Part shown: positions 3,283-21,776 of the stretch, piece after piece
Position numbering within the stretch: the first letter of the stretch is position 1
Layout of the letters: each line of letters opens with the position of its first letter
Assembly: GCF_026341125.1 (NCBI RefSeq)
Contig: NZ_JAPEOR010000001.1
Coordinates: forward strand, 3,224,001 to 3,288,000
Length of the DNA stretch: 64,000 nt
Source: Streptomyces sp. NBC_01142
Lineage (GTDB): Bacteria; Actinomycetota; Actinomycetes; Streptomycetales; Streptomycetaceae
Direction: 5' to 3'
Notes under the pieces: model-generated
What the model saw: the letters and a program-made list of their open reading frames with translations, nothing else
Told to the model about the DNA's origin: nothing
The model's database searches: none
Translations under genes and position numbers: made by a program

Positions 3283-3338
3283 CCGTGAGACGACGAAGTC
3301 CCACCGGAACGCTCCGGTGGGACTTCGTCGTCTCACGG
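3283..3338 (-). terminator. Very long perfect hairpin downstream of the defence operon
   Basis: Arms 3283-3308 and 3313-3338 are perfect reverse complements over 26 bp with a 4-base loop (ACGC). The hairpin lies about 130 bases beyond the stop of the last gene of the minus-strand defence operon and before the decayed metallophosphoesterase. It is the likely transcription terminator of that operon, although there is no U-tract and the stem is much longer than usual. The flanking 3048-3282 and 3339-3469 show no gene I can support. Confidence 0.6.
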
Positions 3339-3469: not shown

Positions 3470-5407
3470 TTAGAGCGGTGGCTGGGCCGAACAGCCGCGC
3501 GGGCAGGAAGCGACTCGTCCCGCCTCACCGCAGGTGCCGCAGGTGGGGCAGACGGACTGGCCGGTGCGGTCCGCGGCCCAGCACGGAACCGCCAGGAGAA
3601 CGCCACCGACACGGCTATCGAGGTCAGGTTCGGGAGCACCGGTAGCGGCAAGGCCGTCCGGATCGAGCAACGGGAAGGTGTCGCCACAGGCCAGGCAGCG
3701 ACGGAGTTCCCACCGGGTATGGCACGAGGTGCAGGACGCTGCGAACAGGCCGTCCTCACGCGGCTCGAAGACCGTCTGGCGCTGAGGGCCGGCCTTGGCG
3801 CACACCGGACACACTTCGAGCAGTTCGGTCTTGGCGGCCGCGTCTTCCAACGCCGCACACAAGGTGCGCAATCGCCGGGTCTCGTGCTCGGTTGCCCGGC
3901 CACTGCCGTGCCGCCTGCGGGTCTGTTTCAGCAGTGCGGGGAGGCGCTCCAACTCGGCCGGGCTCGGGGCGCGCACGACCGCGACACCGTGAGGCCGGGG
4001 TTCGAGCCAGCCGCAGCCCGCCAGAGCGGAGCGATCGCCTGCGGGTACGGGCACGGTGTGGGGGTAGTCGCGCGCGTCAGCACCCAGTGTCGCCCATTGG
4101 ACTGCCCGCAGCAGGCGGCTGACGCTGAAAATGTCCAGGGGGGACAAAGGTGCGACGTCGACCTGCGGCTCGGGCGCGTCGCTGTAGCGATAACCGATCC
4201 GATAGGCGGCCCGGACGACGTCAGTCTCTGCGTCCTGACGTGCTTGAAGCAGTCCTGGATAGACGATCAGGTCGTTGTCGCACACGGCACTCGGCCGGTC
4301 GCGGCGGGATTCCGTGATCGCCGCAGCGACCGAGGAGGCGTCGGGAGCCGTGCACAGGTCGGTCGTGATCGGTACGACGCGGAGCACCTGCCGCTTGCGC
4401 CAGTGAAGGATGAAGTCGCCCGTCTGGGACCAGGTGACCGTCAGCGACTCGCCTCGCATGTGGAAGCGGGTGGTGCAGCCGGGGGAAGGAACCGGCTGGC
4501 CAGAGTCCGGGACTGCCTGTAGCAGCTTGCAGGCGAGCAGCAGAAGGAGGCTGGTGAAACGCCCGAAGGCGAAGAGGATCTCCTGTCGCCGACGGGCCGT
4601 TTCGGCTTGTCCGAGACGCGGGGTCTCGATTGCCGTACAGGCTTGCCAGAGCAGAGCCACCCTGCGGTAATGCGGATCACTGCTCAGCAGGTTCGTCGGA
4701 TGCAGTGCGCGCGGCGGTGCGGAGCGGTGGTCGACCGCGCGTGCCAGCGGCGAGCCCAGCATCACCTCCACTGCCGTGAGGGAGGATTCGAGTGCCCGCC
4801 GGCGCACCTCCGCGGCCGCCTGGTGCCGACCAGATTCCTCGATGTTCCTGAGTAGTCCGGCCAGGTCTCGTCGGGCCCGCCAAGAAGTTTCCTGCGAGGG
4901 CACGAGCAGGCCGTGTACATCGTCCACCATCCTGCTCAGGTCTCTGAGCTTGGCGATGCGCTGCTGCAGATAAGATCGCATCACGTTGAGGACGGCGATC
5001 GCGACCCGGTTCTCGTAGATGTCGGCGTTTTCCTCACTGCGCCGGGCCAGCAGACGGCTGGGCCGGACACCGGCGAGCGTATGCGAGGCCCAGTCCTCGG
5101 GGCGGGCGGCCAAACGCGCCGTCGCGCCGGCGGCAATCGAGCGCACCCGGGACGTCGGCAGGATTTCCTCCACCGCACGCAGGCGCGTGTACGGGCGGTG
5201 GCAAACCGTGCGCAGCGCCCCGGACTCCCGCTCGAAAGCGTCCTCCACCGGCAGGACTTCCGTCTCATCGGTGACGTCGAGGATGATCGGCGACATGGCC
5301 AGCCAGTCGTCGAGCGTAGTGGCCTCCTCGGCGAGACGGGCCGACACCGCTAGGAGGTGGCGGACGAGGAGAGAGCCGAGCTCCGGCTCGGCCGCCCCCC
5401 GGCTCAT
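3470..5407 (-). CDS. McrC-like DUF2357 protein with C-terminal zinc ribbons
   Basis: This 645-residue protein is the last gene of the six-gene operon; its ATG overlaps the stop of the McrB-like gene as ATGA (5404-5407), so the two are translationally coupled. The N-terminal half resembles DUF2357, the domain preceding the nuclease in McrC-type proteins: CHRPYTRLRAVEEILP, then SHTLAGVRPSRLLARRSEEN with the typical ENR. From residue ~533 it carries a cysteine-rich tail: CPVC, CTSC, CLAC, CPTC, then CGEAGRVASCPRGC, i.e. two or three zinc ribbons. In McrBC systems McrC is the partner that stimulates the McrB GTPase and cuts nucleic acid. I do not find a clear PD-(D/E)XK motif, so nuclease activity is doubtful; the zinc ribbons may bind RNA, DNA or ribosomes. 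Confidence 0.65.
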   Translation of the reverse strand: MSRGAAEPELGSLLVRHLLAVSARLAEEATTLDDWLAMSPIILDVTDETEVLPVEDAFERESGALRTVCHRPYTRLRAVEEILPTSRVRSIAAGATARLAARPEDWASHTLAGVRPSRLLARRSEENADIYENRVAIAVLNVMRSYLQQRIAKLRDLSRMVDDVHGLLVPSQETSWRARRDLAGLLRNIEESGRHQAAAEVRRRALESSLTAVEVMLGSPLARAVDHRSAPPRALHPTNLLSSDPHYRRVALLWQACTAIETPRLGQAETARRRQEILFAFGRFTSLLLLLACKLLQAVPDSGQPVPSPGCTTRFHMRGESLTVTWSQTGDFILHWRKRQVLRVVPITTDLCTAPDASSVAAAITESRRDRPSAVCDNDLIVYPGLLQARQDAETDVVRAAYRIGYRYSDAPEPQVDVAPLSPLDIFSVSRLLRAVQWATLGADARDYPHTVPVPAGDRSALAGCGWLEPRPHGVAVVRAPSPAELERLPALLKQTRRRHGSGRATEHETRRLRTLCAALEDAAAKTELLEVCPVCAKAGPQRQTVFEPREDGLFAASCTSCHTRWELRRCLACGDTFPLLDPDGLAATGAPEPDLDSRVGGVLLAVPCWAADRTGQSVCPTCGTCGEAGRVASCPRGCSAQPPL

Positions 5408-7767
5408 CGCCGACCACGCGAGCGGATCTCGTCGTCCAGCAGTAGTTGTGTCGCCGTCGGCTCGTGAGCGCTGTCGAACCGTGTCAGGCTTTCGACAAGG
5501 TCGGTGCGCAGTGTGTCGAGGGTGTCAGCATGGATGTCGTACCGCCCACGGACGGAGCGCAGGATGCGTGTGGCCAGCAGGTGGTCCAGTGCCTCCCCCG
5601 GACTGCCTCCGGCGGCCACCACGACGGGTGCGAACTCCTTGATCTGCATCTCGAGCCGATTGCCCCAGCCGATGCGCAGCTCCTCCGCGAAGCGACTGCG
5701 CCAGTGGGTGTCGAGAAATTCGATGATGCCGTCGGCCTGTGTGCCGTAGGTGGCCTGAGCCTCGCCGAAAGCATGGCTGATACGTCGGAGCCCGAGGGGT
5801 TCCGGCGGTGCGCTCGCCGTCACAGGCAGGTCCGGGTGCCGCCAGGGCAGTTCCAGGACGAAGGCCCGGTCATAGGTCTTGTCGGCAAAGCCGACGGTCG
5901 TTTCGTCATGGTTGGCTGTCCCGATGAACCAGACGTTCTCCGGAATGGCGAGGTGCGTTCCGTCGATGATCAGGTTGGCGGGGTTTCTGACTGGTGCTGT
6001 GGTCAGCGCCAGTCTGGGTCGGTCCTTGATGGCGAGGGCTGACAGCACTCCGCTGAAGTACTGTTCGGGATGGGAGAGGTTCATTTCGTCGAGGACGATG
6101 AAGAAGGGCCGGTCCTTGAAGGCGGGGCACTGAGCGCGGTACAGGGCTTTGGTGAACTCGGATTCATAGAAGATCCGGTCAAAGCTGTTGTAGTAACCCA
6201 TGAGGTCCTGCGGATCGCGCCAGCCGGCCTGGACGGGAACCACGGCGACACTGGTGTCACTGCCGAAGGCGGTGGCGAGCGCGCGGGCCAAGCCAGTCTT
6301 GCCGATGCCACTGATGCCCTGGAACAGATGGAGACGGCTCATCGCCATGCCCGCCAGGACCAGGCGCAGGTCCGACAGACGATAGGAAAGGCCGGCCTTC
6401 TGCCGAAGGGCCGCCTGCATATGGCGGACCAGATCGGGCATGCCTGGCACGGGCGCATCGGAAGGCAGGGGTGTGCCGAACTCCCGGTCCATGCGTGAGC
6501 AGGCCGGGAACACATGACCTTCCTTGCCGGCCTGGGCCGTGGCGTTGAGTTTGGCAGCTTCCTCGTTGAGGAGCTGCTGCAGTTGGCCGTTGGCGGCGCG
6601 CAACCAGTTGTTGGCTTCCAAATAATTCTGGCGCTCGTTGACCGCGATGCGGTCACGTTGCAGCGCGGACTCCAGCTCTCCACGCTCCCGCATCAGTTCC
6701 TCATTGTCGGCGGCGAGTTGCCGGACTTGCTGCTGCAGTTGCTCGAGCATGCGCCCGTCCGCCCGGGGCGCCGTGGCGTTCTCCTCCAGCAGGCGGGCGT
6801 TCTCGGCGCGGAGTTCGGTCATGCGCTCGACGACCTGCTCCAAGGTCATGCCGCCCAGGGATGCAAGAGCGCTGTCATACTCGTTGAGCCGAGCGCTCAG
6901 ACGCTCGTTGCCCTCAGCGAGGGCAGCCGCCTTCTGCCGGTACTCCTCCAGCTGCTGGACCAGCTGGCCGGTGCGGCTCGTCAGCTCGCGCTCGAACCGT
7001 TCCGCACGGCTGGCCTGTTGTTCCTTGAGCGCGGCTTTGAGGTGGGTGATGTCCTCACGTTCGTTCTCCAGTCGGATTTGTGCGGAGCGCAGGTCCCTCT
7101 CGCCCTGGGTCAGTTCGCTTTCCCTCTGGTCCAGGACCGTCTGCGCCTCGGCCAGGCGACGCTGTTCCTCGCTCCAACGGGCATGCCGGGCCTGACGTTC
7201 GCTGTCGAGGGCGTCCACGGCCACCTGCCGCTGCTCCGCCAGCCAGCTCTCCAGCTCACGGCCTGCCGCTAGACGGCGCTCTGCGAACTGTACTTCCGTC
7301 GATCGCTCACGGTCGGAAAGATCGCGCTCCCTGTGATCGAGGAGCTCCGTGCGGGTGTCCAGGGCGGCGCGTTCGTCCTGCACTGAGGCTGCGTCCTCTG
7401 CCTGGCGGGCAGCTGTGGCAGAGAGCTCCTCCGACTCGGCATGAAGCTGCTCTGCCTGTACCGTCAGTGCGTTCGCCGCGTCTTGCTGGCGCTTGGCGAG
7501 AGCGCGGTAGAGCTGCCACGCGTGTTCCAGGCCGGAGTCCGTGTCGACGGTCTCGTTCCCCGCCGCAAGGACCACCTGTGCCTCACTCGCCACCTGCTGT
7601 ATCTCCGTCAGCAGCGTGGCGGTGTCGTCGCTTCCTGTAGTGGTGCTGGACGCCACAGGAGCCGGCTGACGCAAACGGGTGGTTTCGCTGCGTTGGGAAG
7701 CAGCTGGCTGACCTGGCCACACCGCTCCCTTACCCTTCTGACGCGACCGCGTCTGCCTCTTCCCCAT
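5404..7767 (-). CDS. Coiled-coil McrB-type AAA+ GTPase
   Basis: This 787-residue protein has two parts. Residues ~55-415 are a long charged coiled coil rich in Glu, Gln, Arg and Leu (for example LNEEAAKLNA and LRAENARLLEEN). The C-terminal part is an AAA+ domain: Walker A GISGIGKTGLA near residue 482, Walker B FIVLDEMNLSHPEQYF near 554 (the McrB-like LDEMN form), and the sensor segment WFIGTANHDETTVGF near 614. McrB proteins form GTP-driven hexamers that act with McrC. A long coiled coil fused to McrB is the defining feature of the CoCoNuT branch of Type IV-like restriction systems. It starts 4 bases after the stop of the HEPN gene and overlaps the McrC-like gene. Confidence 0.8.
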   Translation of the reverse strand: MGKRQTRSRQKGKGAVWPGQPAASQRSETTRLRQPAPVASSTTTGSDDTATLLTEIQQVASEAQVVLAAGNETVDTDSGLEHAWQLYRALAKRQQDAANALTVQAEQLHAESEELSATAARQAEDAASVQDERAALDTRTELLDHRERDLSDRERSTEVQFAERRLAAGRELESWLAEQRQVAVDALDSERQARHARWSEEQRRLAEAQTVLDQRESELTQGERDLRSAQIRLENEREDITHLKAALKEQQASRAERFERELTSRTGQLVQQLEEYRQKAAALAEGNERLSARLNEYDSALASLGGMTLEQVVERMTELRAENARLLEENATAPRADGRMLEQLQQQVRQLAADNEELMRERGELESALQRDRIAVNERQNYLEANNWLRAANGQLQQLLNEEAAKLNATAQAGKEGHVFPACSRMDREFGTPLPSDAPVPGMPDLVRHMQAALRQKAGLSYRLSDLRLVLAGMAMSRLHLFQGISGIGKTGLARALATAFGSDTSVAVVPVQAGWRDPQDLMGYYNSFDRIFYESEFTKALYRAQCPAFKDRPFFIVLDEMNLSHPEQYFSGVLSALAIKDRPRLALTTAPVRNPANLIIDGTHLAIPENVWFIGTANHDETTVGFADKTYDRAFVLELPWRHPDLPVTASAPPEPLGLRRISHAFGEAQATYGTQADGIIEFLDTHWRSRFAEELRIGWGNRLEMQIKEFAPVVVAAGGSPGEALDHLLATRILRSVRGRYDIHADTLDTLRTDLVESLTRFDSAHEPTATQLLLDDEIRSRGRR

Positions 7768-7771
7768 GGCG

Positions 7772-9220
7772 TCAGTTCACCTTCTTGCTGTTCGTGGATC
7801 GGTCACCACTCAGATCGAGCAAGTGGCGGGCTGCTTCGTAGGCGAGAGTCCGGATGTGCTCAAGCTCGTCGGGTGCCGGGGCACCGGTCGGTCCGTGGGT
7901 CGCGTTGTTGCGCAGTATCCGTGACCGGTCGAGATCTTCCAGGAGTGTGGGGCGCCGCCGGATGAACGTGACGAACGGATGCTGCGGATTCTCTCCGGCC
8001 GCCCAGACTGCCTTGATGATGTCTCCGGCCAGCCCGTTGGCCGGCGCTCTGCAGTACTTGCGCATCTCGGGCGGCACAGAGGTGGCGCCCAGGCGCTGGG
8101 CGGTCAGTACGAATGCGCGCTCCCGTACTCCTGGCTCCCTGGATGGCGGCAGTCGGGCGGGGAAGCGGTCGTTGAGCCCGGGAAGTATGCACTCGAAGAC
8201 ACGGATCGCATTGCGTGCGGCGTTCTCGCGTTCCCGCGCGGTGTCCTTGAGAAGCGCCAACTCGATGTCCGCGAGATGAGCCAGCACCTCCGGGTGGTCC
8301 CGGATCTCCTCGCCGAGCATGCGTACGACGTCGGCGCGGGCCTCCTCGGCGAGTTCCTGGTCGACCCTGCGTGCGGTGGCGGTCCGGTCGCGGCGGCTCC
8401 CGCCGAGCAAGCCGTCGATCAGTCGGCCCAAAGGCTCGTCGCTTTCGGCGCGGGCCACCAGGAGATCCGCCAAGAAGCGCCCGTCCCCCACTGCGAACGG
8501 ATCCTCGACGGTCCACATACGCCCGGACCCGTCGTCGTCCTCGACGACGTAGCACACCACATAGGCGGCGATCGCCGTGCCATGGAAGCCGATCCGACGA
8601 GCCGCTACCACGGTGTCGGACGTGCCGCGGGAAGCACCACGAAACCCACGAGCAGCCAGGTCGTGGCTTTTGCAGGCTTGCAGCACATCTCGTTCCGACG
8701 GGCGCATCGAGGAACCGCCGGCCCGAAGCGTCAGCGCGCTGACCTCCCGGGAGGCACCGGCCGTGCCGAACTGAATGGTGACCCAGCGGCCGCGATGCTC
8801 TCGCAGATCGGCTCGTACCGGATCGGCGACCAGGATACGAGGCAACAGCACTCCGGTGGCCGGATCCTGGAATACCCGGACGAGCTGGGGATCCGTCTCC
8901 GCCACCTCCCCCTCGGCGACGGTACGCCGCCCCGCCTCGGTCAGCTTCAGCCCGGGCTCCATAAGCCGCCCCTCTACAAGCCGGGCGATCACCGTGCGGC
9001 ACAGGGCGGTGTCCAGGCCGATCAGCCGGGACAGGTCACCGACGTCCCGCACTCCGGCGGCGCACAGACGCAGCACCACGGTCTGGAAGACGTCCAGTGT
9101 GCGGGAGTAGCCGGTCGGCGCCGTCACCTGGTGGACCCACACCGGCAGCAGAACGGGCCGATACCGCTTCTGAGGCGGAAATGCCAGCTGGAAGACGGGT
9201 GTCTCACGGTCGAACGACAC
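7772..9220 (-). CDS. HEPN-motif protein of the defence operon (predicted RNase)
   Basis: This 482-residue protein is not a named family to me. The GTG at 9220 is chosen because a GGAAGGGGG ribosome binding site precedes it and it overlaps the helicase stop by 17 bases; longer frames run into the helicase gene. Near residue 438 it reads RILRNNATHGP: R-x4-H in an RNxxxH arrangement, the catalytic signature of HEPN ribonucleases, followed by a final helix (ELEHIRTLAYEAARHLLDL) as expected. The N-terminal third contains a winged-helix-like stretch (LSRLIGLDTALCRTVIARLV) and the middle a beta-rich part. HEPN proteins in defence systems cut tRNA, rRNA or mRNA to stop growth of infected cells. Its position between helicase and GTPase genes suggests it is the RNase effector. 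Confidence 0.6.
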   Translation of the reverse strand: MSFDRETPVFQLAFPPQKRYRPVLLPVWVHQVTAPTGYSRTLDVFQTVVLRLCAAGVRDVGDLSRLIGLDTALCRTVIARLVEGRLMEPGLKLTEAGRRTVAEGEVAETDPQLVRVFQDPATGVLLPRILVADPVRADLREHRGRWVTIQFGTAGASREVSALTLRAGGSSMRPSERDVLQACKSHDLAARGFRGASRGTSDTVVAARRIGFHGTAIAAYVVCYVVEDDDGSGRMWTVEDPFAVGDGRFLADLLVARAESDEPLGRLIDGLLGGSRRDRTATARRVDQELAEEARADVVRMLGEEIRDHPEVLAHLADIELALLKDTARERENAARNAIRVFECILPGLNDRFPARLPPSREPGVRERAFVLTAQRLGATSVPPEMRKYCRAPANGLAGDIIKAVWAAGENPQHPFVTFIRRRPTLLEDLDRSRILRNNATHGPTGAPAPDELEHIRTLAYEAARHLLDLSGDRSTNSKKVN

Positions 9221-12200
9221 GGCCGTCCGCCCCCTTCCGACACAGTTCCAGAAACGCGGCGAGGGGCGCGACCGCCTTGGGGCTGTCGGGCCCGAACATG
9301 TCGTCGTCACCCACGACGGCCAGCAGCCGCTGCTGGCGGCTCATCGCCACGCACAGTCGGTTGGCGACGGTCAGGTGGCCGTAAGCGCGCTTGACGTCGG
9401 TTCGCGCGGCCGGTGCGCAACTGCGCACGGTGGAGAGATAGGTGACGGAGAACTCCATGCCTTGGAAGGCATCTACGGTGCCGACTCGTAACCGGTCGAG
9501 CGGCGCGCCGTCCGCGTCACGGCACAGCCGGGGCACGGGGCGCCATCCACCCGCATCGGTGAACTCGGCGAGCCCGGCCTTCTTCAGCTCCTTCCACACC
9601 TCGGTGACCTGCGCGGCGTAGAACGAGATGACGCCGAACGTCATGTTCGGGTGCCGCTCGACTTGCGCGGCTATCTCCGCTGCGATGACAGTGGCTTCAG
9701 CGTGCCGGGTGCGGCTCGTCCCCCGTTGCGTTTCAGCGCCCGCAGACAGCGGCACGCGAAGCCACACCGCAGGGACCTCACCGTAGCGGTCGATCCCGTG
9801 AGTGAAGTCGGCCGCTTCGCGGCCGTTGCGCAGTTTCCCTGGGTAGAAGTTGTCGCTGACGAAGCTGCCGAGCACCGGGTGCATGCGGAACTGGGTGTCG
9901 AGACGGACGAACCGGGGATGCCCGTCGGACGAACCGTGCTCCCACTGCCGTGCCAGTCGCTGGAACAGACTTTCCTGCAGCCGGTCGCGGACGTCCTCGC
10001 CGAGCGAGCTCAGCTCGCGCTCCACGTCGGGTTCCAGCATGTGGGGGAGCTGGGCGTGATCGCCGACCAGCACGATCCGGCGGCGGGCCTGGGCGAGGGG
10101 GATCAGGAGATCCAGCGGGTTGGCCCGGGCCGCCTCGTCGACGACGACCGACTCGAAGACTCCGTCCTGACGGCCGACGTCCACCATGGCTTTGGAAACG
10201 GCCTGTTGGCAGGTCGAGGCCAGCGAGACGGTGTAGGCGCGGAGGGTGTCATCGACGCCTTCCGGATCGCTGCGCAGATCGTCTCGGTAATCGAGCAGTG
10301 CCGCGGCTATGGCGTCGGGTGACCGGGTCACCGCTTCCGCGAGTTGTGCTGCGAACCGGTCGAGGAGGTCGGCGATCGTGGGATCGGCCACGGTGACCTC
10401 TGGCAGCCGAATGCGCGCGGTGAGACTGTCGAGCAGGGCGTCGCGCAACGCGGCAAGTGAGTTGAGGAGTTCAGGCTGGGGTGAAGCGCTACTGGCCGCT
10501 GTACGCAGCGACTCCTGGTAGGAGATGCCGTCGAAGAGCGGGGAGTCGGCGAGGTCGAGCCGTGTCAGCAGTGCTCGAGCCGCGCGGGGCCCGTCGTCCT
10601 CGAACCCGGTCACCGTGCAGCGCAGCGACCGGATGTAGGGCAGGAGGTCCGCGCGCAGGTCGGGGTCGGCCATGGTGGCGGCCCGAATGCGATGCCTCTC
10701 AGCTCTGTCTCTGAGACTGCGGAGTTCGCCGACCAGTGAGGGGTCGGATATGTCTCCAAGCTGGGTGACTACTTGGTCGAGGAATTGGGGCAGGAACTCG
10801 GGCGGAACGGGTGCCGCCCGGTAAGTGGCGGCCAATTCGGCGGCGGCTCGCCGAGCAGCGAGATGCTGTCCCACCGGGCGTTCACGTAGCCGCAGGTCGG
10901 CGGCGCGGGCTGCGTCAATGCGCCAGGTGTCCAGCGCGACCTTGCTGCCCCGGCCGCGGGAGTCCACCTTGAGCGGCGGTAGCCCAAAGACCCAGCCTCG
11001 CGTGACCAGATGGTCCACCGCCGCATGCTGGAAGCTTGTCAACAGGGTGCTGCCGGCTACCTCTCCGCCCTGAGCGAGATCACCCAGTTGATTCACGAGA
11101 GCAGCGATCACCTGCGTTTTGCCAGTGCCCGGCGGTCCTTGGATGATCGCGACATCGGGGGTGTTGAGCGCGGTGAGCACCGCCTCCCGCTGGGCCGGCG
11201 TCGGGCCATGGGGTGCGAAGCAACTGAGCGCGGAAGAAGAGAGCTTCGTGATCCGACGTCTTGTCGGCTGCGGCCAGCTACCTCCCTCTAGCAGAGTCGG
11301 TAGCGCGGGAATGTGGGTCCCGTCGATGCGCAGCTTTTGCATGGCTTTCTCGCGCCGGTCGAGCCGACGCTGATCTCCGCGGTGTGCCAGGTAGAGCCAG
11401 CCCTGGGGCGGTGGGTCCTTCTGGTCGTTGAGGGTTGCGGCGAGCCGTAGGGTCTCGGTGACGCTGTCGTACCCGAGCGGTTCACCGATCCAGGCCCGTA
11501 CCTTCTGCGCACGCGAAGCGACCAGCCACTCCCGATCGGTCATCGCGGTGTCTGACACGGAGGCCGGAACTTCTGCTGCGGCCTCGATCTCGACGCGTTC
11601 GGCCGCTGTTGTGCTCTCCAGGGCGGCTCGCGTGCGGGGCAGCGCCCGATGGAGGTCCACCGTGAACACGCAACGGCCATCTGACTCGACCTTGACCTTG
11701 GTGTAGCGGATGGTCCCGAAATCGCGAATCCGGCCCCTGATGTGGCGGGCCTCTAGTTCTTGGTATCTGTCCCACATGGCCAGGTAGCCGTTCTGGTTGG
11801 CCACCAGGTCGAGGCCCTGCTGTATTCTCTCCCGGTCTCGCTGTCTGGCCGTCACGTCGCGGAAGTCGATTGACCCGACGGCCAGTGCCTTGTGGCTGGC
11901 GCCGCGCTGATCGTGGACCGAGCTGAGTAGGCGGACAATACGGTAGTCGGCGCTGTTTTTCTCGACATCGGCCATGAGCCCTGGTCCGTGCACCCGGAAG
12001 CCGACTTCATAGCTGCCGGCTGGTCCGGCCGAGACCACCAGGCGCCTGGCGTTAGCTGGAGCCCCGGGCCGGGGCTCCAGGAAGAGCTCTCGCCTCATGA
12101 ACTCCATGACGGAAGCGACGTTGACGGTGTCCGCGCGGTCCGCGTACTTGGCGGTGTCCTCCAGGACGGCGTCATCGACGTCGAGCAGCAGGCCGGTGCT

Positions 12201-12617
12201 GAGCGGCACAGCGAGTCCTACGGCGGGAGCATAGATGTGCACCCGCAAGGTGAAGGGTTCGTCGGCCGGCGCCGCGGGTGGATGCGGATTACCGGTACGG
12301 CGCCGGGGCGGTGCGGCGGGCGTGGGCGGCTTCGGCCGGGTCGGATGCGCAGTGACCGTCACACAGCTGCTCCCGGCTGCCTCGACTTCATCGAGCCTCC
12401 GTTCGTCCTCGGGACTCGCTGGCTTGATCCCGAACGTGGCGGAGTCGGTGACCAGGTCGAGTAGTCCTGTGGGCCGACGGTAGAGGCGGACCTCGCTGCC
12501 ATCGGGAATGATCTGGCCGGCGAACCCCTGCGGCACTCGGTGCCACAGGAAGGACACGAAGACCGGCTCTCCCGGCATACGGGCGGGCATGACTGGCCCC
12601 CTGGGGCGAACGCTCAC
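9204..12617 (-). CDS. UPF1-like superfamily 1 helicase
   Basis: The GTG at 12617 overlaps the kinase stop as GTGA and follows a GGAGGCGAGCAG ribosome binding site, giving 1137 residues. The first ~480 residues are a family-specific N-terminal region, including a Pro-rich linker near residue 120 and a beta-rich part around RGRIRDFGTIRYTKVKV. The helicase core follows: Walker A GPPGTGKTQVIAAL near 491, motif II VVVDEAARANPLD (DEAA, as in UPF1/Dna2) near 822, VGDHAQLPHML, QFRMHPVLGSF near 906, TVDAFQGMEF near 1050, and NRLCVAMSRQQ. This group translocates on RNA or DNA. UPF1-like helicases are a regular partner of CoCoNuT-type McrBC systems, which fits its place in this operon. Confidence 0.8.
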   Translation of the reverse strand: MSVRPRGPVMPARMPGEPVFVSFLWHRVPQGFAGQIIPDGSEVRLYRRPTGLLDLVTDSATFGIKPASPEDERRLDEVEAAGSSCVTVTAHPTRPKPPTPAAPPRRRTGNPHPPAAPADEPFTLRVHIYAPAVGLAVPLSTGLLLDVDDAVLEDTAKYADRADTVNVASVMEFMRRELFLEPRPGAPANARRLVVSAGPAGSYEVGFRVHGPGLMADVEKNSADYRIVRLLSSVHDQRGASHKALAVGSIDFRDVTARQRDRERIQQGLDLVANQNGYLAMWDRYQELEARHIRGRIRDFGTIRYTKVKVESDGRCVFTVDLHRALPRTRAALESTTAAERVEIEAAAEVPASVSDTAMTDREWLVASRAQKVRAWIGEPLGYDSVTETLRLAATLNDQKDPPPQGWLYLAHRGDQRRLDRREKAMQKLRIDGTHIPALPTLLEGGSWPQPTRRRITKLSSSALSCFAPHGPTPAQREAVLTALNTPDVAIIQGPPGTGKTQVIAALVNQLGDLAQGGEVAGSTLLTSFQHAAVDHLVTRGWVFGLPPLKVDSRGRGSKVALDTWRIDAARAADLRLRERPVGQHLAARRAAAELAATYRAAPVPPEFLPQFLDQVVTQLGDISDPSLVGELRSLRDRAERHRIRAATMADPDLRADLLPYIRSLRCTVTGFEDDGPRAARALLTRLDLADSPLFDGISYQESLRTAASSASPQPELLNSLAALRDALLDSLTARIRLPEVTVADPTIADLLDRFAAQLAEAVTRSPDAIAAALLDYRDDLRSDPEGVDDTLRAYTVSLASTCQQAVSKAMVDVGRQDGVFESVVVDEAARANPLDLLIPLAQARRRIVLVGDHAQLPHMLEPDVERELSSLGEDVRDRLQESLFQRLARQWEHGSSDGHPRFVRLDTQFRMHPVLGSFVSDNFYPGKLRNGREAADFTHGIDRYGEVPAVWLRVPLSAGAETQRGTSRTRHAEATVIAAEIAAQVERHPNMTFGVISFYAAQVTEVWKELKKAGLAEFTDAGGWRPVPRLCRDADGAPLDRLRVGTVDAFQGMEFSVTYLSTVRSCAPAARTDVKRAYGHLTVANRLCVAMSRQQRLLAVVGDDDMFGPDSPKAVAPLAAFLELCRKGADGRVVRP

Positions 12618-14035
12618 CTGCTCGCCTCCACAGCCATCAGACGCACCCAGCGGTGGATCACACCCTGCCTCCCGAAGTGAAGCGTCCAGGCGCGGCCGTC
12701 GACAGGCACGGTTGCCTGGCTTCCCTGGCCGATCTCCCGCCATGGCCGTCCGTCTTGATGGTCCAGCCAGAGACTGTCGCGCGAAAGGTTCAGCACGGTG
12801 GCGTCCTGGCTGTGAAGCCGCAGCTGTGCGACCACCGAGTCAGGTCGATCCGGGGCGGGTGAGGTATGCCGGGCGGTCAGAGTCGTCTCGCCGCCGGGAC
12901 GCAGTGCGGTGAAGTCGGGCAGAGGAACTTCCGAGAGCTGGATACCAGGGGTGTCGTCAGTGCTCCCCGATCGGTCTTGCGGCTCGGTACCCACCGGACC
13001 AGTCAGTCCGTGGCGCAGCACCCAGACACGGTCGCGGGGTCTCCGGCACGCGAGGCAGGAGGGGGCGAAGACACGGTAGGTCCATCCGCACTCCGGGCAC
13101 TCGATGGTCTGTCCCGCAGCGGAGTGCAGGGCCGTGGCCCACCGGGCAGCCGACGGCCGGAGGAGGGGATTGGCCACGGCGTCCACGAAGCACTGTGAGG
13201 CCAGGTCCCACAGCTGACCGGACAGGAGTTCCTGCCGTGGTGTGATACCCAGAGTGCACTCATTGGTGCGGTCGGTGGGGTGGTCGATCCATGGAAGGCG
13301 GAAACGGTCTGCGTACTCCTCTTGGTAGGCGGGGTCGGAGTCCAGGACCTCGTCGCCCCGGAACGGGTGACTGGCCGTGAGGGTCTCGAAGATCAGAACG
13401 CCGAGTGCGTGTGCGTCGGCCAGAGTGGTGGCTCCGCTGTGACCCGACACGATTTCCGGTGCCCCGTACCCGGGGGTGTGTACCGGCGCGGATCCGACGG
13501 CCGAGGCCAGACCGAGGTTGTCCACGTCGATGAGACGGATTTCCTGTTGCTGGGTAGCGGCGGAAATCAGCACGTTGGAGGGTGACAGATCCTGGTACAC
13601 GATGGCACGCGCGTGGAGCCGGGCGACGGCGTCTGCAAGTTTGGCCAGCAGCCGCAGTCGGCGTTCCAGACCCCCGGTGCGCAGATACCAGGCTGCCAGG
13701 TCCTCCTCGTCGGGGACGCACAAGGTGTCCAACGGGACCATCTCATTGGCCAGTTCCATTACATAACCGAGCTTCGGCGGGGCGAGCAGGGCGAGTACGC
13801 CGGCCAGCGGAACACCTTCCAACGGAAGGCGCTGGATACGGCGCAACCGAACGTGAACAGCCTCTGCTGCTTCCTGAGTCGGAGCAGTGATTATCTTTAC
13901 GGCGGTTCGTCCGCCTCGGGCCAGCCATACTTCGCCCTGGCCGCCGGCTCCGATCGAGTGGGACAGCGACCAGAGCTGGTGGTACTCGTCCTCGACGGGC
14001 CGCAGCAGGCCGCCGAGATCCCAGCGCGATGCCAC
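12614..14035 (-). CDS. TerY-P-type protein kinase with zinc ribbon
   Basis: This 473-residue protein has an N-terminal Ser/Thr kinase fold: glycine loop GAGGQGEVWLA near residue 28, lysine in AVKII, catalytic loop YQDLSPSNVLI near 145, metal-binding loop LIDVDNLG, and APE in YGAPEIV. HRD is replaced by YQD and DFG by DVD, with both aspartates and the Asn kept, so activity is plausible. Residues ~310-330 form a zinc ribbon or knuckle (CPECGWTYRV then CLACRRP). The rest is a beta-rich domain resembling FHA-like folds (VLNLSRDSLWL, WTLHFGRQG). The gene starts 33 bases after the VWA gene and overlaps the helicase gene. Kinase plus VWA protein is typical of TerY-P triads; the phosphatase member is not here. 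Confidence 0.75.
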   Translation of the reverse strand: MASRWDLGGLLRPVEDEYHQLWSLSHSIGAGGQGEVWLARGGRTAVKIITAPTQEAAEAVHVRLRRIQRLPLEGVPLAGVLALLAPPKLGYVMELANEMVPLDTLCVPDEEDLAAWYLRTGGLERRLRLLAKLADAVARLHARAIVYQDLSPSNVLISAATQQQEIRLIDVDNLGLASAVGSAPVHTPGYGAPEIVSGHSGATTLADAHALGVLIFETLTASHPFRGDEVLDSDPAYQEEYADRFRLPWIDHPTDRTNECTLGITPRQELLSGQLWDLASQCFVDAVANPLLRPSAARWATALHSAAGQTIECPECGWTYRVFAPSCLACRRPRDRVWVLRHGLTGPVGTEPQDRSGSTDDTPGIQLSEVPLPDFTALRPGGETTLTARHTSPAPDRPDSVVAQLRLHSQDATVLNLSRDSLWLDHQDGRPWREIGQGSQATVPVDGRAWTLHFGRQGVIHRWVRLMAVEASR

Positions 14036-14068
14036 AGGGTGCCTTTCCTCTCGCCGTGTCCCGCCGAT

Positions 14069-14743
14069 TCAAGCGCCGAAGTCGGACAAATCGTCGGGAC
14101 TCAGTACCGGCGCCCGGTCTGGACGAGTACTTCGAGCCTGCTGGGTGACCGTGACCGTGACCCAGCGGAAGTACTGCTGGATGCGTCCGACGTCTTGTGC
14201 CTCGAACACGCCGTTGGCCTCGTCGCTGACGAAACGGCGCAGCACGGCTTTTGCCTGCTCGGTCATGTCGGGACCGATGGCGACCGCCAGCCGGTTGGCT
14301 CTAGAACCCTTCGGGGAGTTGAGCAACCGGTCGAGGGCCTCTTCCCACTCGTCGGTGGGCATTCCGTCGGACACGAGAACAAGTGTGGGAGAGAAGGACC
14401 TGGTTGGGACGGCTGCTTCGTCACGCAGCACCGCATCAGCGAGTTCGAGGGCGGCACCAAGCGGGGTGCCGCCTCGGGCCTCCATGTCGGTCCAGGATGC
14501 ATCGGCTGCGGGCACCATGTCCTGATGCAGTTCAGCCCGATCACGGCTGAAGGCGATCACTCCGACGTGGATGGTGCCTCGCCCGATATCGGCCGTAGCG
14601 AAATCGTCGAGCATGCGACGGATGCACTCATTGAGCACATCGATCTTCTCCCGGGGTTCTCCCATGCTCCCACTAACGTCCGCCAGTACGAGTACTGGTA
14701 ACGGACGTGCCTTCGCGGCCATAAAACGCGGCGCGGCACCCAC
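14069..14743 (-). CDS. VWA (TerY-like) protein
   Basis: This 224-residue single von Willebrand A domain protein has an intact metal-ion-dependent adhesion site: VLADVSGSMGEP near residue 21 (DxSxS), then the Thr/Asp loops in RGGTPLGAALELAD and LVLVSDGMPTDEWEEAL. The GTG at 14743 follows a GGGGGACATC ribosome binding site. It is the first gene of the six-gene minus-strand operon. In TerY-P modules the VWA protein binds kinase and phosphatase partners and is thought to gate the associated effector by phosphorylation; here only the kinase is present. The protein is cytoplasmic, with no signal or membrane segment. Confidence 0.8.
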   Translation of the reverse strand: MGAAPRFMAAKARPLPVLVLADVSGSMGEPREKIDVLNECIRRMLDDFATADIGRGTIHVGVIAFSRDRAELHQDMVPAADASWTDMEARGGTPLGAALELADAVLRDEAAVPTRSFSPTLVLVSDGMPTDEWEEALDRLLNSPKGSRANRLAVAIGPDMTEQAKAVLRRFVSDEANGVFEAQDVGRIQQYFRWVTVTVTQQARSTRPDRAPVLSPDDLSDFGA

Positions 14744-14837
14744 GATGTCCCCCCATCGCTCTCACCGCACTAGTGGCTGCAAACCGACACGCCTAGTTGC
14801 GGCAAGGTCATTCCTGACGCTGAGGCAGACCAAGGTA

Positions 14838-15269
14838 CTACGTGTCGCATCTTGCGTGCAGTCCGTGACAGCTGGGGATGTTGGTCGTTGTGGCGGAGAA
14901 GCGTTGAAAGTTCACGGCCACGAGGTAGCGACCGGCTCCGTAGGCGGCGGTGCTATGACTGGAGGGCGTCGGGATCCGTGGAGGCTCTGACGTGCCCCTG
15001 CTGTGGCGCTGCGCCGCCATCTCCAGTACCACGAGCCGGAAGCTCCAGACGAACGGCCCCCGTTCCGTGCCCTCGTCGGCTGCGATCAACGTGAGCACCT
15101 GGTCCACGCTGTCGATCTCGGTGAGTAGAGGGTAGTTCGGGCCGAGCGCGCCGATGTGTCTGCTCCCACGCCTTGAGCACATAAACCGGTCCGGCCACGT
15201 CCAGCCATTCACGACCAGGTACCGCGTAGCGGCGTCGGTCACGACGCCAGGCTCGATCAGCAACGGCAC
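14838..15269 (-). CDS. Hypothetical protein upstream of the VWA gene
   Basis: This is a possible 143-residue protein from a GTG at 15269 (a TTG at 15278 is equally likely); no clear ribosome binding site separates them. The stretch GALGPNYPLLTEIDSVDQVL and GPFVWSFRLVVLEMAAQ look like genuine folded protein and have host codon use, but the last 45 residues are poorly biased, and a frame change near 15170 cannot be excluded. It has the same direction as the VWA operon and ends 94 bases before it, so it may be its first gene or a decayed remnant. I recognise no family. Confidence 0.35.
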   Translation of the reverse strand: MPLLIEPGVVTDAATRYLVVNGWTWPDRFMCSRRGSRHIGALGPNYPLLTEIDSVDQVLTLIAADEGTERGPFVWSFRLVVLEMAAQRHSRGTSEPPRIPTPSSHSTAAYGAGRYLVAVNFQRFSATTTNIPSCHGLHARCDT

Positions 15270-15438
15270 CTCGTGCAACGATCCTCGTACCCGTGTGAGC
15301 GGGCTGGTATGGCAGGCGCAACGGAGCGGCCGGACGCGGGAATCGACGGGTTCACGCCGACCGCCGTTTCCGCCCCTTCCTCTTCCTCGACGATCTACGA
15401 TCGGTGACCGAGGGATCACACAGCAAGGGGGGCGGGGG
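15270..15438. promoter_or_regulatory. Divergent promoter region of the island's two large units
   Basis: This gap separates the minus-strand defence operon (with its possible leader gene) from the plus-strand sacsin-like gene. No clear -35/-10 pair or operator stands out by eye. A strong GGGGGGCGGGGG-type ribosome binding site at 15427-15438 precedes the plus-strand ATG. Confidence 0.35.
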
Positions 15439-18400
15439 ATGATCGCTGAGCCGGGCGGGTGGACGGCGGCCGAGGTGGAGCAGGCGATCCGGGCGGCCGA
15501 GGAACTCATGGACCGCGAAGGGCTGGCGGGCGGGGTGGAGGTGGCGGAACCGGTCGGGCCCGAGGCGACGTGTGCGGCCGTCGAGCGGCTCGGACGTCTG
15601 TTCGTGGAGCTGCCCGGACAGATGCGGTACGGGCTGCGCCAGCAGCGGGACAACGGCGGGGACCTGTCGACCGACCCGCTGCAGGGGCTATCCGAGATCG
15701 TGCAGAACGCCGACGACCTCGGGGCGAAGCAGGTCAGGATTTTCGTACGTGACACGGAACTTCTGGTAGCGCACGACGGGCGTCCCGTACGGCTGACCGA
15801 TGTGATGGCGCTGGCCATGCCGTCACTGACAAGCAAGGACGACGACCCTGACGCCACCGGCCGGTTCGGCATCGGGCTCATGACCCTCCGGCGTCTGTCC
15901 CCGGTCCTGGAGATCTTCTGCGGCTTCTACCGCGTCCGGATCGGGGACCCCGACTTGTCCCTCGCCGACCCATTTTCGGGCCCCTCCTGGTTCGCTGAGG
16001 ATGGTTGGACGGTCCTGCGCATTCCGCTCGCCACCCCCGCCGACGTGCAGGTGCAGGATGTCGACGACTGGCTTGCCGCATGGGGTGACGAGGCGCTGCT
16101 CTTCCTCGACCACGTGCGCACGGTTGAGCATCAACGGGAGGGCGGTTACGTACACACCCGCCTCGCCCTGAAGTGGGGCGAACTCGATGCCTACGAGGCC
16201 GTCATCGGCGGTCGGGACACCGTGATCGACGTGTGCACGGCCCGGTCACCCGGCGGCATGACCTGGCAGGTCAGCGTTGCCGCCGTGCCGAGCCCGCCGG
16301 ACGTGCCGCGGATCCGGAAGGCTGCGGGCGAATCGACCGGCCTTGCCGTCGCGATCCCGCTGCACGAGGGCGCGGGCGACGAGGTCGCCGGGCAGGTACA
16401 CGTCGGACTGCCCGTGACCGAGCTGGGACTTCCGCTCCGGGTCGGTGCCCAGTTCGATCCGAACCCGAGCCGTCAGCACCTCAACGACACCCCGTGGAAC
16501 CAGGCGCTACTTCCCCTGCTGGCCGACCTCTGGGCCGCCGTAATGGTGCGACAGCTTCGGTTGAACCCGACCGCGGCCTGGCGGTGCCTGCCCTTGCCGC
16601 ACGACGTCCGGTCGCCCAAGGGGCCTGTACGTGACCTGGAGCTGCAGTTGCTGGCCCTTGCGCGCGCGAGGGTGTCGTACGAACTGCGCCTGCGGACGCC
16701 GCTCTACGGTGACCTCGGACTCGCCGACCTCGCCGTTGGTGACGGGGCGCTTCTGCGAGCGCTCTCGGAGGCGGAAATCGCGCAGGTGGCTGGGCGTACG
16801 GCCGTATTGCCTCCGGCGGCGCGGGATGCGGAGGGTCGGTGGCAGGGCGTGCTCGAGGACTGGGCCGAACACGACGGTGCCGCGCCCGGGACCGTCACCG
16901 TTCAGATGGCTGTGGACGCGCTCCTCGGAGATGCGTCTCGGAGCCCGAAGGCGACGGTTGCACTCGCTTCCGTCGCCATCGCCGAGGGCGAGACCCAGAA
17001 GCTTCGATGGCACAAGTGGCTGGTGGACGTATCCGGAGCACGGCACCGGGTGCCCGGGTTCGGAGGCGCAGAGCTCTTCACCGACAAGGCGCAGGGGCTC
17101 TCGAAGGTGCTGGGGCTCAGCCGCGCCCTGCACCCGGCCTTCGTCGCCGAGACCGGGGAAGCGGCACGAGTCCGTACGTGGCTGAAAGGACAGCAGGTCT
17201 TCGTCACGGGCGCGGATCCGGCGCCCGCCATCCGCCAGCTCGCCGCCCGTGGCACCCGAAAGGACATCGCGCCTCTGCTCCTGGACGACGACCAACTGGT
17301 GGCGCTGCGCGAGGGGTTCCTGCGCGTCCCCGCGAAGGAGCGCCAGCGGCTGGGCAAGGACGTGGGCCGCGCCGTCCTGCTGCACGGCCGCGGGTTCGGG
17401 CCCGGCGGCCGTCAGGAGGATGTACAGGTCAGACCAGCGGATGCCTACCTGCCGGCCGGGTTGGACAGTGTGGACCGGGAGGACAGCTTCGAGACAGCCG
17501 CAGGTACCGCCACCGGTCTGACGTGGCTGCGACCCCGCTATGTTCAGATCCTGCCTGGGGCGGGGACGGGTCTGGGCGCCCGAGCCTTCTTCCACCTGCT
17601 CGGTGCCGAGAAGGGACCGCGGCTGCGGCCGCACCCCGAAGTCGAGCAAAGGTTCACTGCTTCCTCCCCGAGCGAGGGTCTGCCGGCCCAGGTCCCGGGC
17701 AGCCCTGTGGAGAGGTCGCAGGACCTCCGGAACAAATCGGCCACCTACACCCTGGAGGACTGCGACAGCCCTGACCTGATGGCCGTCGTCCATGACATCG
17801 CCGCCGAGAAAGACGGGCTGGTACGACGCCGGCGGGCAGCCGCGCTGCTGCGGGTGCTGGGACGCAACTGGGGCGCCTTGTCCGAGCACCACAAGGTCCG
17901 CGCCGTCTGGGACTACCACACATGGAACCCCTGCGGGGAGACGGACGGCTTCTGGCTGTGGCAATTGAAGACCACGGCGTGGCTGGACAACCAGGACGGC
18001 GCACCGACCGCTCCCCATGGCCTGCGCGAGCGCACGACCAGTACCGTCGCCGTCTACGGTGCGGACAGTGGCGGATTCCTGCATCCCGACCTCCAGCAGG
18101 CGGTGGGCAGACGAGGAGAGGTGCTGGTCGCTCTCGGTGTCACCGGCGAGCCGGGTGTCGCCGACCTCCTGGAGGCGCTGCGCCGACTGCGTGCCCGGGA
18201 AGCCGACGCCCCCGACCATCCGGCGGCGCAGCTCCTCTACCGGGCGCTCGCTGAGCGACTGGCCGCCCACCGAGGCAAGGACGCCGCGCAGGTGACCGCC
18301 ACCGTCGTGCGTGCCTTTGGGCAGGGCCGCGGACTGGTTCTCACGTCACTGGGATGGCGTCGGCCGGGCGACTGCTTCCGCGGCCTCCCGGTCTTCGGCC

Positions 18401-20128: not shown

Positions 20129-20275
20129 TCAGGCACCCGTCCGGTCACGCACCGGGATTAAGGGTGCCGTCCACGATCCACAGCCGATCCGCCGCGTCGG
20201 CAGGACGGGCGGCCGGCTCGATGGCCAGGAGAGGCCGCAGCCGCTGGATGACCCGGCACACGGTCGCCGGCGCTT
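20129..20275 (-). mobile_element. IS5-type transposase fragment
   Basis: The minus strand reads EAPATVCRVIQRLRPLLAIE and ADRLWIVDGTL, which resembles the segment of streptomycete IS5-family transposases leading to the first catalytic Asp (WIVDGTLIPVRD). One extra base after DGTL moves the continuation LIPVRDRTGA into another frame, which then stops. Only about 45 residues remain, with neither end repeat visible. The fragment is fused to the truncated gene on its right at about 20275, so an insertion followed by deletion probably cut that gene. Confidence 0.55.
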
Positions 20276-20632
20276 CTCCAGGACGGGGCCGAGCGCCGGA
20301 TCTAGCATCTCTCGGTCGGCCAAGAATGTCACCTTGGCATCGAAGTTCCGGGCGATGTCCCTCAGTTTCGACTTGGAGATCACCCGGGCCTCGATCGAGG
20401 GAATCTCCGCCGCCGCTTCTTCGTGCCCGTGGGCCGCGAGGTCCCTGCACTTCGCCAGCAGGCCCGTCAGCAGCTCCTGATCCCACAGCGCGGTCTGCAC
20501 CGTCCGGTGAAGGATCAGCTCTGTCACACTGTCGAGGAGTATGTACGCCAGCCGCAGGTGAGGCACCCGCCCTTTCTCGATCAGCCCCTTCGCCTCTTCG
20601 AGTTGCACGACTATCAGTTCCAGGCGCTCCAT
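20276..20632 (-). pseudogene. Truncated helical protein, HEPN-like N-terminus
   Basis: From an ATG at 20632 about 118 residues have good codon use: MERLELIVVQLEEAKGLIEK, then LAYILLDSVTELILHRTVQ, and a region ending EMLDPALGPVLEK. The pattern of amphipathic helices recalls HEPN-type proteins, whose usual continuation (a YRNEAYHR-type RxxxxH segment) would follow exactly where the IS5 transposase remnant takes over at ~20275. The gene therefore seems cut off just before its catalytic part. No firm family assignment is possible. Confidence 0.45.
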
Positions 20633-20768
20633 ACCGACCTCTCCCTCGCACTGCTCGACATCATCCTGCCTCGCAGCGCAGGCGGACGGGCTTGCCAGTT
20701 CCGTAGCACAGCAAGGACGGTCGGCCCTCGGGCAGGAGCGCCGTCAACCCTGCAGTCGTGCCGGAATC

Positions 20769-21776
20769 TCAGGTCCATGGGACGGGCTCGGTCTCGCCGA
20801 CCCACCTGTTGGTCCTGGAGAGGTCCTGGTAGGAGCCTCGGTAGCCGATCGAGCGGAGTACCAGCAGCGCGAGGTAATGGCGGGTTAGTAGCCAGGTCTC
20901 GGTGACCAGTCCTTTGGCTCCGTATACGGGCTCTTGTGTCTCTTTGGGATGCACAAGACGGTTCCGGACTCGTGTGACGACGTCGGCGCCATCCGCCGAC
21001 CGGGGTTCGTTCACTTGCTGCCCGGTCGCGAAGGAGGCGGTCGCCGGCAGATGGGCTGCGCGCACCCTTAGATCTACCCCGGCGTCCGTCAAGAGTGTGC
21101 GCAGCTTCCTATGGGCCGGCCAGGCGCGGGATGTGAACTCGGCTTCGGTGAGCCGACCACTGAGCACCAGCTCCTGCCACATCACGTGTTCCAGTCCGGC
21201 AGCTCCACTCATGATTCGCTGTTCGACGAACCCTCGGTCGGCAATGGCAGTGATCGCGTACTGCATCTGCAGGCGGAGCGCCTGTCCCGTGCCTGAATCG
21301 CGGAAGGCGGGCAGGATGCTGGCCAGCAGATCTGCCAAGGATGCCTGGTCTTCGGGGTACCACCAGCCGGAGCTGATGCGGCGTGCCGGGTCGCAAAGCA
21401 TCGGGCCCCACTGGCCCCACACCGTCTGTTCGTGGTCGTTCTGGCCAACAGGCAGGGCGGGGGCGACCCACCGGCCGAGCGCAAAGGACAGCCCGACGTG
21501 CATGGCACTGAGGACCGGGGTGACCTCGGCTCCGGTGAACGTGGTTCCGTTTAGCCGACGGATCTCCATTGCGTGGGTCATGACGTAAGTATCGGTCTGG
21601 CGCACGTCAGAAAGGACGGCCTCGTGGTCGGGTCGAACGTCAAGCGTGATCCTCCACCCGTCCGCCTCGTACACACTGCGGCCGGCGGGCACCAGTCGTG
21701 GAGTTCCATCGGCAACGTGAGCTGCGAGGTGGGCTGACCCGTGCCATCGGGGCAGGTTAAACCTGTGCGACGACAC
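20769..21776 (-). CDS. ApeA-like HEPN protein, probable 5' frameshift
   Basis: From a GTG at 21776 this is 335 residues. The N-terminal part is beta-rich (SVYEADGWRITLDVRPDHEA); the C-terminal part is helical and carries VTRVRNRLVHPKE near residue 270, an R-x4-H HEPN ribonuclease motif, followed by a long final helix. The layout matches ApeA-type abortive-infection proteins. Upstream in another frame, from an ATG at 21897, runs MDRTNLSLLDLGFELPV and VSGWSNGTSFGEPTAPLDR, which looks like the true N-terminus of the same protein. One base change around 21775 would join them. The gene is thus either shortened with a new start or inactivated. Confidence 0.55.
   Translation of the reverse strand: MSSHRFNLPRWHGSAHLAAHVADGTPRLVPAGRSVYEADGWRITLDVRPDHEAVLSDVRQTDTYVMTHAMEIRRLNGTTFTGAEVTPVLSAMHVGLSFALGRWVAPALPVGQNDHEQTVWGQWGPMLCDPARRISSGWWYPEDQASLADLLASILPAFRDSGTGQALRLQMQYAITAIADRGFVEQRIMSGAAGLEHVMWQELVLSGRLTEAEFTSRAWPAHRKLRTLLTDAGVDLRVRAAHLPATASFATGQQVNEPRSADGADVVTRVRNRLVHPKETQEPVYGAKGLVTETWLLTRHYLALLVLRSIGYRGSYQDLSRTNRWVGETEPVPWT

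Follow-up and report, generated by a model that had tools for sequence, protein, structure and literature searches.

To what system does a set of six genes belong in which a TerY-like VWA protein and a protein kinase are followed by a UPF1-like helicase, a HEPN protein, a coiled-coil GTPase of the McrB type and an McrC-like partner, and how would such a system be controlled when the PP2C phosphatase that usually stands between VWA and kinase is missing? We address this question for an operon found in a stretch of 64,000 nucleotides (positions 3,224,001 to 3,288,000 of contig NZ_JAPEOR010000001.1; hereafter the window) that lies within the 10.1-Mb genome of Streptomyces sp. NBC_01142. The analysis leads us to assign the operon, with a probability of roughly 0.88, to the Type II CoCoNuTs, i.e. 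to the predicted RNA-targeting Type IV restriction systems, as an actinobacterial form in which the TerY-P module has been cut to VWA and kinase.

According to the main text of the 2024 census by Bell et al. (eLife 2024, PMC11090510), CoCoNuTs are widespread predicted immune systems whose hallmarks are an NxD motif in the GTPase and an McrB that is fused to a coiled coil, and at that time no NxD GTPase had yet been characterised; our literature search found no later experimental work on CoCoNuTs. The same main text describes for Type II a UPF1-like CnuH with an SmpB-like N-terminal OB fold and an RTL domain, a CnuE with a winged helix and one HEPN domain, and a CnuC with an inactive PD-(D/E)xK domain, a zinc ribbon and a shortened N-terminal beta-sandwich. 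These genes are usually preceded by the TerY-P triad (VWA, PP2C and a kinase with a zinc ribbon), which is not counted as part of the CoCoNuT core.

Identity of the operon

The profile libraries of Pfam, PADLOC and NCBIfam were run on the proteins encoded in the window. They confirmed the six-gene operon with one direction and tight spacing that had originally been predicted from the letters alone: six open reading frames (ORFs) on the minus strand, at positions 3470-14743, encode in order the VWA protein, the kinase, CnuH, CnuE, CnuB and CnuC. The VWA and Pkinase domains, like AAA_11 and AAA_12 in CnuH, score above the Pfam cut-offs. The three metal ion-dependent adhesion site (MIDAS) motifs of the VWA protein are identical across the related loci L001-L011 (see below), and the AVK, YQDLSPSN and DVDN motifs of the kinase are preserved. 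CnuH finds its best sequence matches among solved structures in NAM7/UPF1 (4.4e-17) and is UPF1-like, with an OB/stalk region and, following Walker A, a large insertion, as in Type II. The winged helix of CnuE scores 26.8 bits against Pfam PF24409, i.e. 0.2 below the cut-off of 27; its HEPN domain has no Pfam match and is called from the conserved RNNATH motif, the single R[ND]xxxH in the HEPN alignment of this protein.

CnuB carries the signature GTANHDETT and thereby the NxD motif, which is found in 32 of 32 aligned CnuB rows, one of them (L044) assigned to Type III-A. Its Pfam AAA_5 match (20.7 bits) lies under the cut-off of 22, the PADLOC candidate PDC-M26A matches as well, and a weak match to the McrB chain 6hz4_A (E 0.015) ranks behind ClpC (0.003). 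The coiled coil shows itself in a proline-free stretch (residues 38-333), in a 3.5-residue periodicity in 76-440 that was equalled by 8 of 500 shuffles, and in an SMC-like match at 104-392 (E 0.0019). CnuC matches DUF2357 (PF09823; 27.9 bits versus a cut-off of 23.3) and contains FdhE-like zinc-ribbon cysteines. The best fold matches of its model are McrC chains, across both the DUF2357 and the nuclease regions (best Foldseek E 0.009, none below 0.001); only this fold comparison revealed McrC, the profile search of solved structures giving no McrC match. The 18 aligned rows hold no conserved catalytic D/E-x-K. The McrC-like protein that had been predicted to lack nuclease residues and to carry zinc-ribbon cysteines is thus indeed an inactivated PD-(D/E)xK fold with a zinc ribbon, and this is the state that the main text of Bell et al. 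gives for Type II CnuC. The predicted CoCoNuT identity itself is borne out by the NxD motif, the coiled coil, the DUF2357-containing McrC partner, the UPF1-like helicase and the HEPN motif.

The operon was also compared with known systems. Classical McrBC shares the McrB-type AAA+ GTPase and the McrC partner, but the signature here is NxD and not NxxD, the nuclease is dead and a long coiled coil is present. Locus L044, on an Enterobacter plasmid and assigned by its gene content to Type III-A, has a homologous kinase, CnuH and NxD CnuB; its CnuE, however, measures 718 amino acids (aa) versus about 482 here, and whereas Type III-A is described with a second HEPN domain and an Hsp70-like CnuCD (PMC11090510), the CnuC of the window has no Hsp70 match in Pfam. 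With Type II, the operon shares the order CnuH-CnuE-CnuB-CnuC, the NxD GTPase with coiled coil, the UPF1-like helicase, the single HEPN, the inactive nuclease fold with CxxC ribbons in CnuC, and the VWA and kinase-zinc-ribbon genes upstream. It differs in that PP2C, the third member of an otherwise similar TerY-P triad, is missing, in that an extension of about 40-75 aa is missing from the N-terminus of CnuC in the main Streptomyces clade, and in that a Pfam scan of 13 window proteins gave no RtcR-like CARF gene.

The N-terminal region of CnuH

In an AlphaFold model of an N-terminal CnuH fragment of 474 residues (window 11157-12578; mean predicted local distance difference test score 77, predicted template modelling score 0.49), the beta domain is nearest to residues 177-286 of Rad5, i.e. 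to the HIRAN alternative, and the stalk/OB region resembles UPF1, SETX and Sen1, in all cases with middling Z scores. SmpB and RTL-type folds did not stand out among the matches listed for the model, and the one entry of RelE/ParE type, ParE2 at Foldseek rank 48 (E 0.33), carries too little weight to be used. In the main text of Bell et al. (PMC11090510), SmpB was weighed against HIRAN for this N-terminus and preferred. A possible, though doubtful, alternative is that the same operon senses DNA: an N-terminus of the HIRAN kind, together with the inactive PD-(D/E)xK fold, would read single-stranded DNA ends or transcribed DNA, and HEPN would cut RNA. The Rad5 match is what this alternative would build on, and the published preference for SmpB points the other way. 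The assignment to Type II CoCoNuTs is the same under either reading of the N-terminus.

Distribution and conservation

A genome collection of 84,980 species was scanned with patterns from the CnuC alignment, which yielded 27 loci. The identical six-gene order was found in L001-L013, all of them actinobacterial (12 from Streptomyces, and L013 from Paractinoplanes), and the further actinobacterial locus L040 brings the total besides the window to 14. In 12 loci of other phyla the order is the same except that PP2C lies between VWA and kinase; these come from myxobacteria and proteobacteria (L015-L022, L025) and from plasmids of Deinococcus (L042), Polaromonas (L043) and the cyanobacterium Pseudanabaena (L045), and Pfam PP2C_2 was checked on two of them. 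Loci that are cut or without most upstream genes (L014, L023, L024, L027) were excluded from the PP2C count, and L041 and L012 are one and the same locus. Upstream of the Polaromonas operon lie the genes for a sigma-54-interacting regulator and a DUF4258 protein, an arrangement similar to the RtcR neighbourhood that has been published for Type II.

The ratio of nonsynonymous to synonymous substitution rates (dN/dS) was determined for the window genes versus five of the 14 actinobacterial loci. The VWA gene is the most constrained (0.06-0.13), the kinase (0.09-0.18) and CnuH (0.11-0.16) come next, and CnuE (0.14-0.25), CnuB (0.14-0.24) and CnuC (0.20-0.34) follow. With 14 further actinobacterial loci sharing the gene order and dN/dS amounting to 0.06-0.34, the order is not due to chance.

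Protein matches in Nonomuraea and Embleya, together with the Paractinoplanes locus, indicate carriage beyond Streptomyces. Within the genus, 9 of 392 genomes are carriers, counting the genome of the window itself and one (G191) with broken pieces only; in a phylum-wide sample there were 3 of 396, all of one genus. The pieces in G191, another Streptomyces genome, are broken CnuC remnants (G191:C1:7315105-7315432; L036, L038), which indicates that the system has been decaying.

Absence of the PP2C phosphatase

No PP2C had been seen in the operon when it was first described from its letters. A profile built from the 12 PP2C-bearing operons, which also recovers the unseeded PP2C of L044 at 2.2e-69, bears this out: it has no match in the 64-kb window, in L001-L013, L026, L040 and L041, or in the extended flanks L046-L054. 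PP2C is therefore absent from all 15 actinobacterial operons and from one myxococcal operon (L026), within the stretches read. These comprise the interval between VWA and kinase, the usual place of PP2C, in all 16 operons, and DNA upstream of VWA. In L001, L004, L006, L008, L009, L011, L013 and L026 this upstream DNA extends over about 9-10 kb; in L003, L012 and L040 it covers 1.3-3.4 kb, and in L002, L005, L007 and L010 no more than about 0.6-0.7 kb. The myxococcal operon derives from a metagenome assembly and has an in-frame stop inside CnuB (L026 8884-8886), which may be a real break or an assembly error.

The actinobacterial operons form one clade with support of 100/100 in both trees that were made, one from CnuH and CnuB and one from five genes. 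A single loss of PP2C across phyla was considered but is not upheld by both trees: the CnuH-CnuB tree joins the actinobacterial operons with L026 (89.7/85), but the five-gene tree (19 taxa) is without that group and places L026 elsewhere (20.1/55). One loss is supported for the actinobacterial clade only, in trees made from the loci collected here, with L044 as their one Type III-A outgroup; the five-gene tree moreover omits L005 and other near-identical rows, and CnuB of L026 enters as one open piece only.

Despite the missing phosphatase, VWA and kinase are apparently part of a switch in use, because the VWA MIDAS and kinase catalytic motifs are preserved in every one of the 16 PP2C-less rows and purifying selection acts on both genes (dN/dS 0.06-0.18). 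A separate TerY-P-like triad of VWA, PP2C and kinase is encoded elsewhere in the same genome (G000:C1:2414426-2417306; L057 6427-9307), and the 16 kb around it gave no match to CnuH, CnuE, CnuB or CnuC. Such a triad is not a constant partner in trans, since no second VWA was found at E 1e-15 in genomes G001, G003, G007 and G008. A phosphatase encoded elsewhere is nevertheless always possible, because PP2C_2 matches occur in 13 of the 13 genomes searched.

Variation in CnuC and in the HEPN motif

Between the stop of CnuB and the first conserved block of CnuC lie 67 codons in the window and 66-68 codons in 13 of the 15 actinobacterial operons (the window, L001-L011 and L040), as opposed to 108-141 codons in the other rows, with the exception of L026 (79 codons). 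We infer that the extension absent from CnuC of this main clade corresponds to the published N-terminal beta-sandwich, a trait that the window does not show and that we take to be descriptive of Type II, not defining.

The HEPN motif varies in another way. R[ND]xxxH is present in 16 of 16 PP2C-less rows, nine of which show it in the separate HEPN alignment too, and also in L043, L045 and L044, whereas in 10 of the 12 PP2C-bearing Type II rows (L015-L022, L025, L042) the arginine is off the aligned site and the histidine is kept. HEPN motifs can have the arginine spaced one residue earlier, and this is where it stands in L016, L017 and L022, so that its loss is firmer in the other seven. The association between HEPN arginine and PP2C is an observation that reflects few independent events.

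The original prediction had allowed for an undescribed subtype, a claim that is not supported, since the inactive PD-(D/E)xK domain with zinc ribbon is already published for Type II, as is the TerY-P module of which VWA and kinase are members (PMC11090510). A distinct CoCoNuT subtype could still be defined by the VWA-kinase dyad and the shortened CnuC, given the fully supported actinobacterial clade without PP2C and the main Streptomyces clade without the CnuC extension. We consider this rather improbable, as every core gene is kept in Type II order, TerY-P lies outside the core in the main text of Bell et al., and the PP2C-bearing operons of Deinococcus, Polaromonas and Pseudanabaena share the remaining gene order. 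In the Type II reading that we prefer, what is new relative to the published main text, and supported by the present data, is the actinobacterial branch without PP2C and, within it, the main Streptomyces clade without the N-terminal extension of CnuC.

Relation to Mokosh

PADLOC, whose library covers antiphage systems both known and candidate, includes Mokosh, and the Mokosh profiles match two of the operon's proteins. MkoA matches CnuH of the window (265 bits, 3.2e-79) and three of the three other CnuH examined (L018, L044, L045), with 264-311 bits over these four. MkoB matches the window CnuE with 55 bits over positions 6-296 of its 610, i.e. in the front half, and the same front-half match is seen in three of five other CnuE (L012, L044 and L045, not L018 and L042). 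The word Mokosh does not occur in the main text of Bell et al. (PMC11090510), and a literature search found no paper naming both Mokosh and CoCoNuTs.

Relative to Mokosh type I, the likeness consists in the helicase and the front half of the winged-helix protein; the differences are that the kinase is here separate from the helicase, that a HEPN motif replaces the PLD domain and that an McrBC pair is added. Mokosh is listed with a PLD-like domain in PMC10952713, and CnuE has no PLD match in Pfam at E 0.1. Because this domain is not found in CnuE, we take the matches as a mark of common ancestry of a kinase-helicase-winged-helix core and not of membership. A Mokosh-type system with split genes (kinase, helicase and winged-helix effector), to which the McrBC genes would be linked by chance, could draw on the very same MkoA and MkoB scores in the window and in other loci, but is most improbable given the lack of the PLD-like domain listed in PMC10952713, the encoding of kinase and helicase by separate genes, and the fact that CnuB and CnuC follow in 15 of 15 actinobacterial operons.

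Operon boundaries and genomic neighbourhood

The features of the operon are collected in Table 1. The longest ORFs of CnuH and CnuE begin at 12743 and 9310, respectively, and their true starts likely lie further inside, at GTG 12617 and GTG 9220, to judge from the resulting gene spacing and from a 96% identical CnuE homologue (P0001) that uses the latter start. With these starts, kinase and CnuH overlap by 4 base pairs (bp) and CnuH and CnuE by 17 bp; the VWA stop and the kinase start are 33 bp apart, CnuE and CnuB are spaced by 4 bp, and CnuB and CnuC overlap by 4 bp.

Table 1. Genes and flanking elements of the operon, with positions in the window
Feature	Position	Strand	Evidence
VWA (TerY-like) protein, 224 aa	14069..14743	-	MIDAS DVSGSM...GGTPLG...LVSDG; Pfam VWA_2 1.9e-8, VWA 3.5e-8
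Ser/Thr kinase with C-terminal CxxC zinc ribbon, 473 aa	12614..14035	-	Pfam Pkinase 7e-18
CnuH, UPF1-like superfamily 1 (SF1) helicase, about 1137 aa from GTG 12617	9204..12617	-	AAA_12 4.7e-31
CnuE, winged helix and one C-terminal HEPN (RNNATH), about 482 aa	7772..9220	-	PF24409 5.5e-6
CnuB, coiled coil and McrB-type AAA+ GTPase, 787 aa	5404..7767	-	Walker A GISGIGKT, signature NHDE (NxD)
CnuC, McrC-like, 645 aa	3470..5407	-	DUF2357, inactive PD-(D/E)xK-like fold, C-terminal CxxC ribbons
Strong hairpin	3283..3338	-	About 130 bp past the last stop; -67.7 kcal/mol versus shuffle mean -35.4, z -8.6
Upstream stretch, about 85-100 bp before VWA	14744..14842	-	13-locus alignment and blastn boundaries

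The palindrome of the hairpin is seen again in L001-L003 and the hairpin is likely a transcription terminator; it is absent from the consensus terminator list, which requires a T-run. The stretch before VWA is common to the Streptomyces operons (weaker in L040), the DNA farther up diverging in the more distant loci, and it probably contains promoter and leader; a sigma-70-like promoter scan gave no site in it on the operon strand. The GC content at third codon positions is 0.71-0.80 for the six genes versus 0.89-0.92 for the ORFs at 26.7-33 kb, a contrast that is weak because values of 0.76 to 0.95 occur among other, crudely called ORFs in the window, and of 0.80-0.81 in the ORFs immediately past the operon end.

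The divergent neighbour (15154-19995, plus strand) matches PADLOC TmtA over positions 7-1483 of the 1486 in the profile, with 1639 bits; we take TmtA to be the Tiamat defence protein. Its real start is probably later than that of the ORF, in which the match begins at residue 105. Two minus-strand ORFs (20129-21776; 167 and 335 aa) without a match in Pfam or PADLOC separate it from a large plus-strand ORF (22904-26305) with a weak match to Mrr-type restriction endonucleases (E 0.001). In L001, 1.3 kb stand in place of the stretch at about 15.2-22.9 kb, so that the TmtA cassette is missing there, and the region 22868-26700 is conserved with 99% identity; L004 does have the TmtA region (93%). Cassette turnover of this kind beside the operon is what is expected of a defence island. 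A non-defence operon for RNA surveillance in Streptomyces, as could be read from the UPF1 relation of CnuH and the strong purifying selection, is very hard to reconcile with an operon that only 9 of 392 genus genomes carry, one of them as remnants, and with the TmtA neighbour and the turnover adjoining it.

Proposed mechanism and implications

For the Type II CoCoNuT of the window we infer an antiphage role and the following biochemical steps. Either the VWA/kinase pair or the helicase itself would detect infection, and the kinase would phosphorylate one or more proteins of the system. CnuH would load on RNA, possibly at stalled ribosomes, and act through the winged helix of CnuE, whereby the HEPN RNase would be switched on; the GTPase ring and coiled coil of CnuB, together with the nuclease-dead, zinc-ribbon-bearing CnuC, would serve as a scaffold that grips nucleic acid and not as a cutter. 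The output of this kinase-controlled system would be cleavage of RNA by HEPN, of phage RNA first and of host RNA afterwards, because, of the nucleases recognised in the operon, HEPN alone has a known catalytic motif that is intact. As the operon has no PP2C of its own, the kinase switch would be reset by phosphatases encoded elsewhere, or never.

More speculatively, and we regard it as a tentative idea with the odds against it, a reversible TerY-P switch may in the actinobacterial branch have become a one-way trigger, in which no dedicated phosphatase reverses what the kinase has phosphorylated and the cell is committed to RNA cleavage by HEPN, with Types II and III-A and Mokosh sharing a kinase-helicase-winged-helix core to which exchangeable nucleases are attached. 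A one-way trigger would be in line with the HEPN RxxxxH motif being intact in all 16 PP2C-less rows and its arginine being absent from the aligned site in 10 of the 12 PP2C-bearing Type II ones, three of which have it one residue earlier.

An operon that has a sensor, a kinase and a canonical HEPN motif but no phosphatase offers a clean place to probe the role of the kinase. At the level of the family, the matches of CnuH and CnuE to MkoA and MkoB tie the CoCoNuTs to Mokosh, and automatic annotation may name CoCoNuT operons like this one Mokosh, with PADLOC scoring CnuH of the window, L018, L044 and L045 as MkoA.

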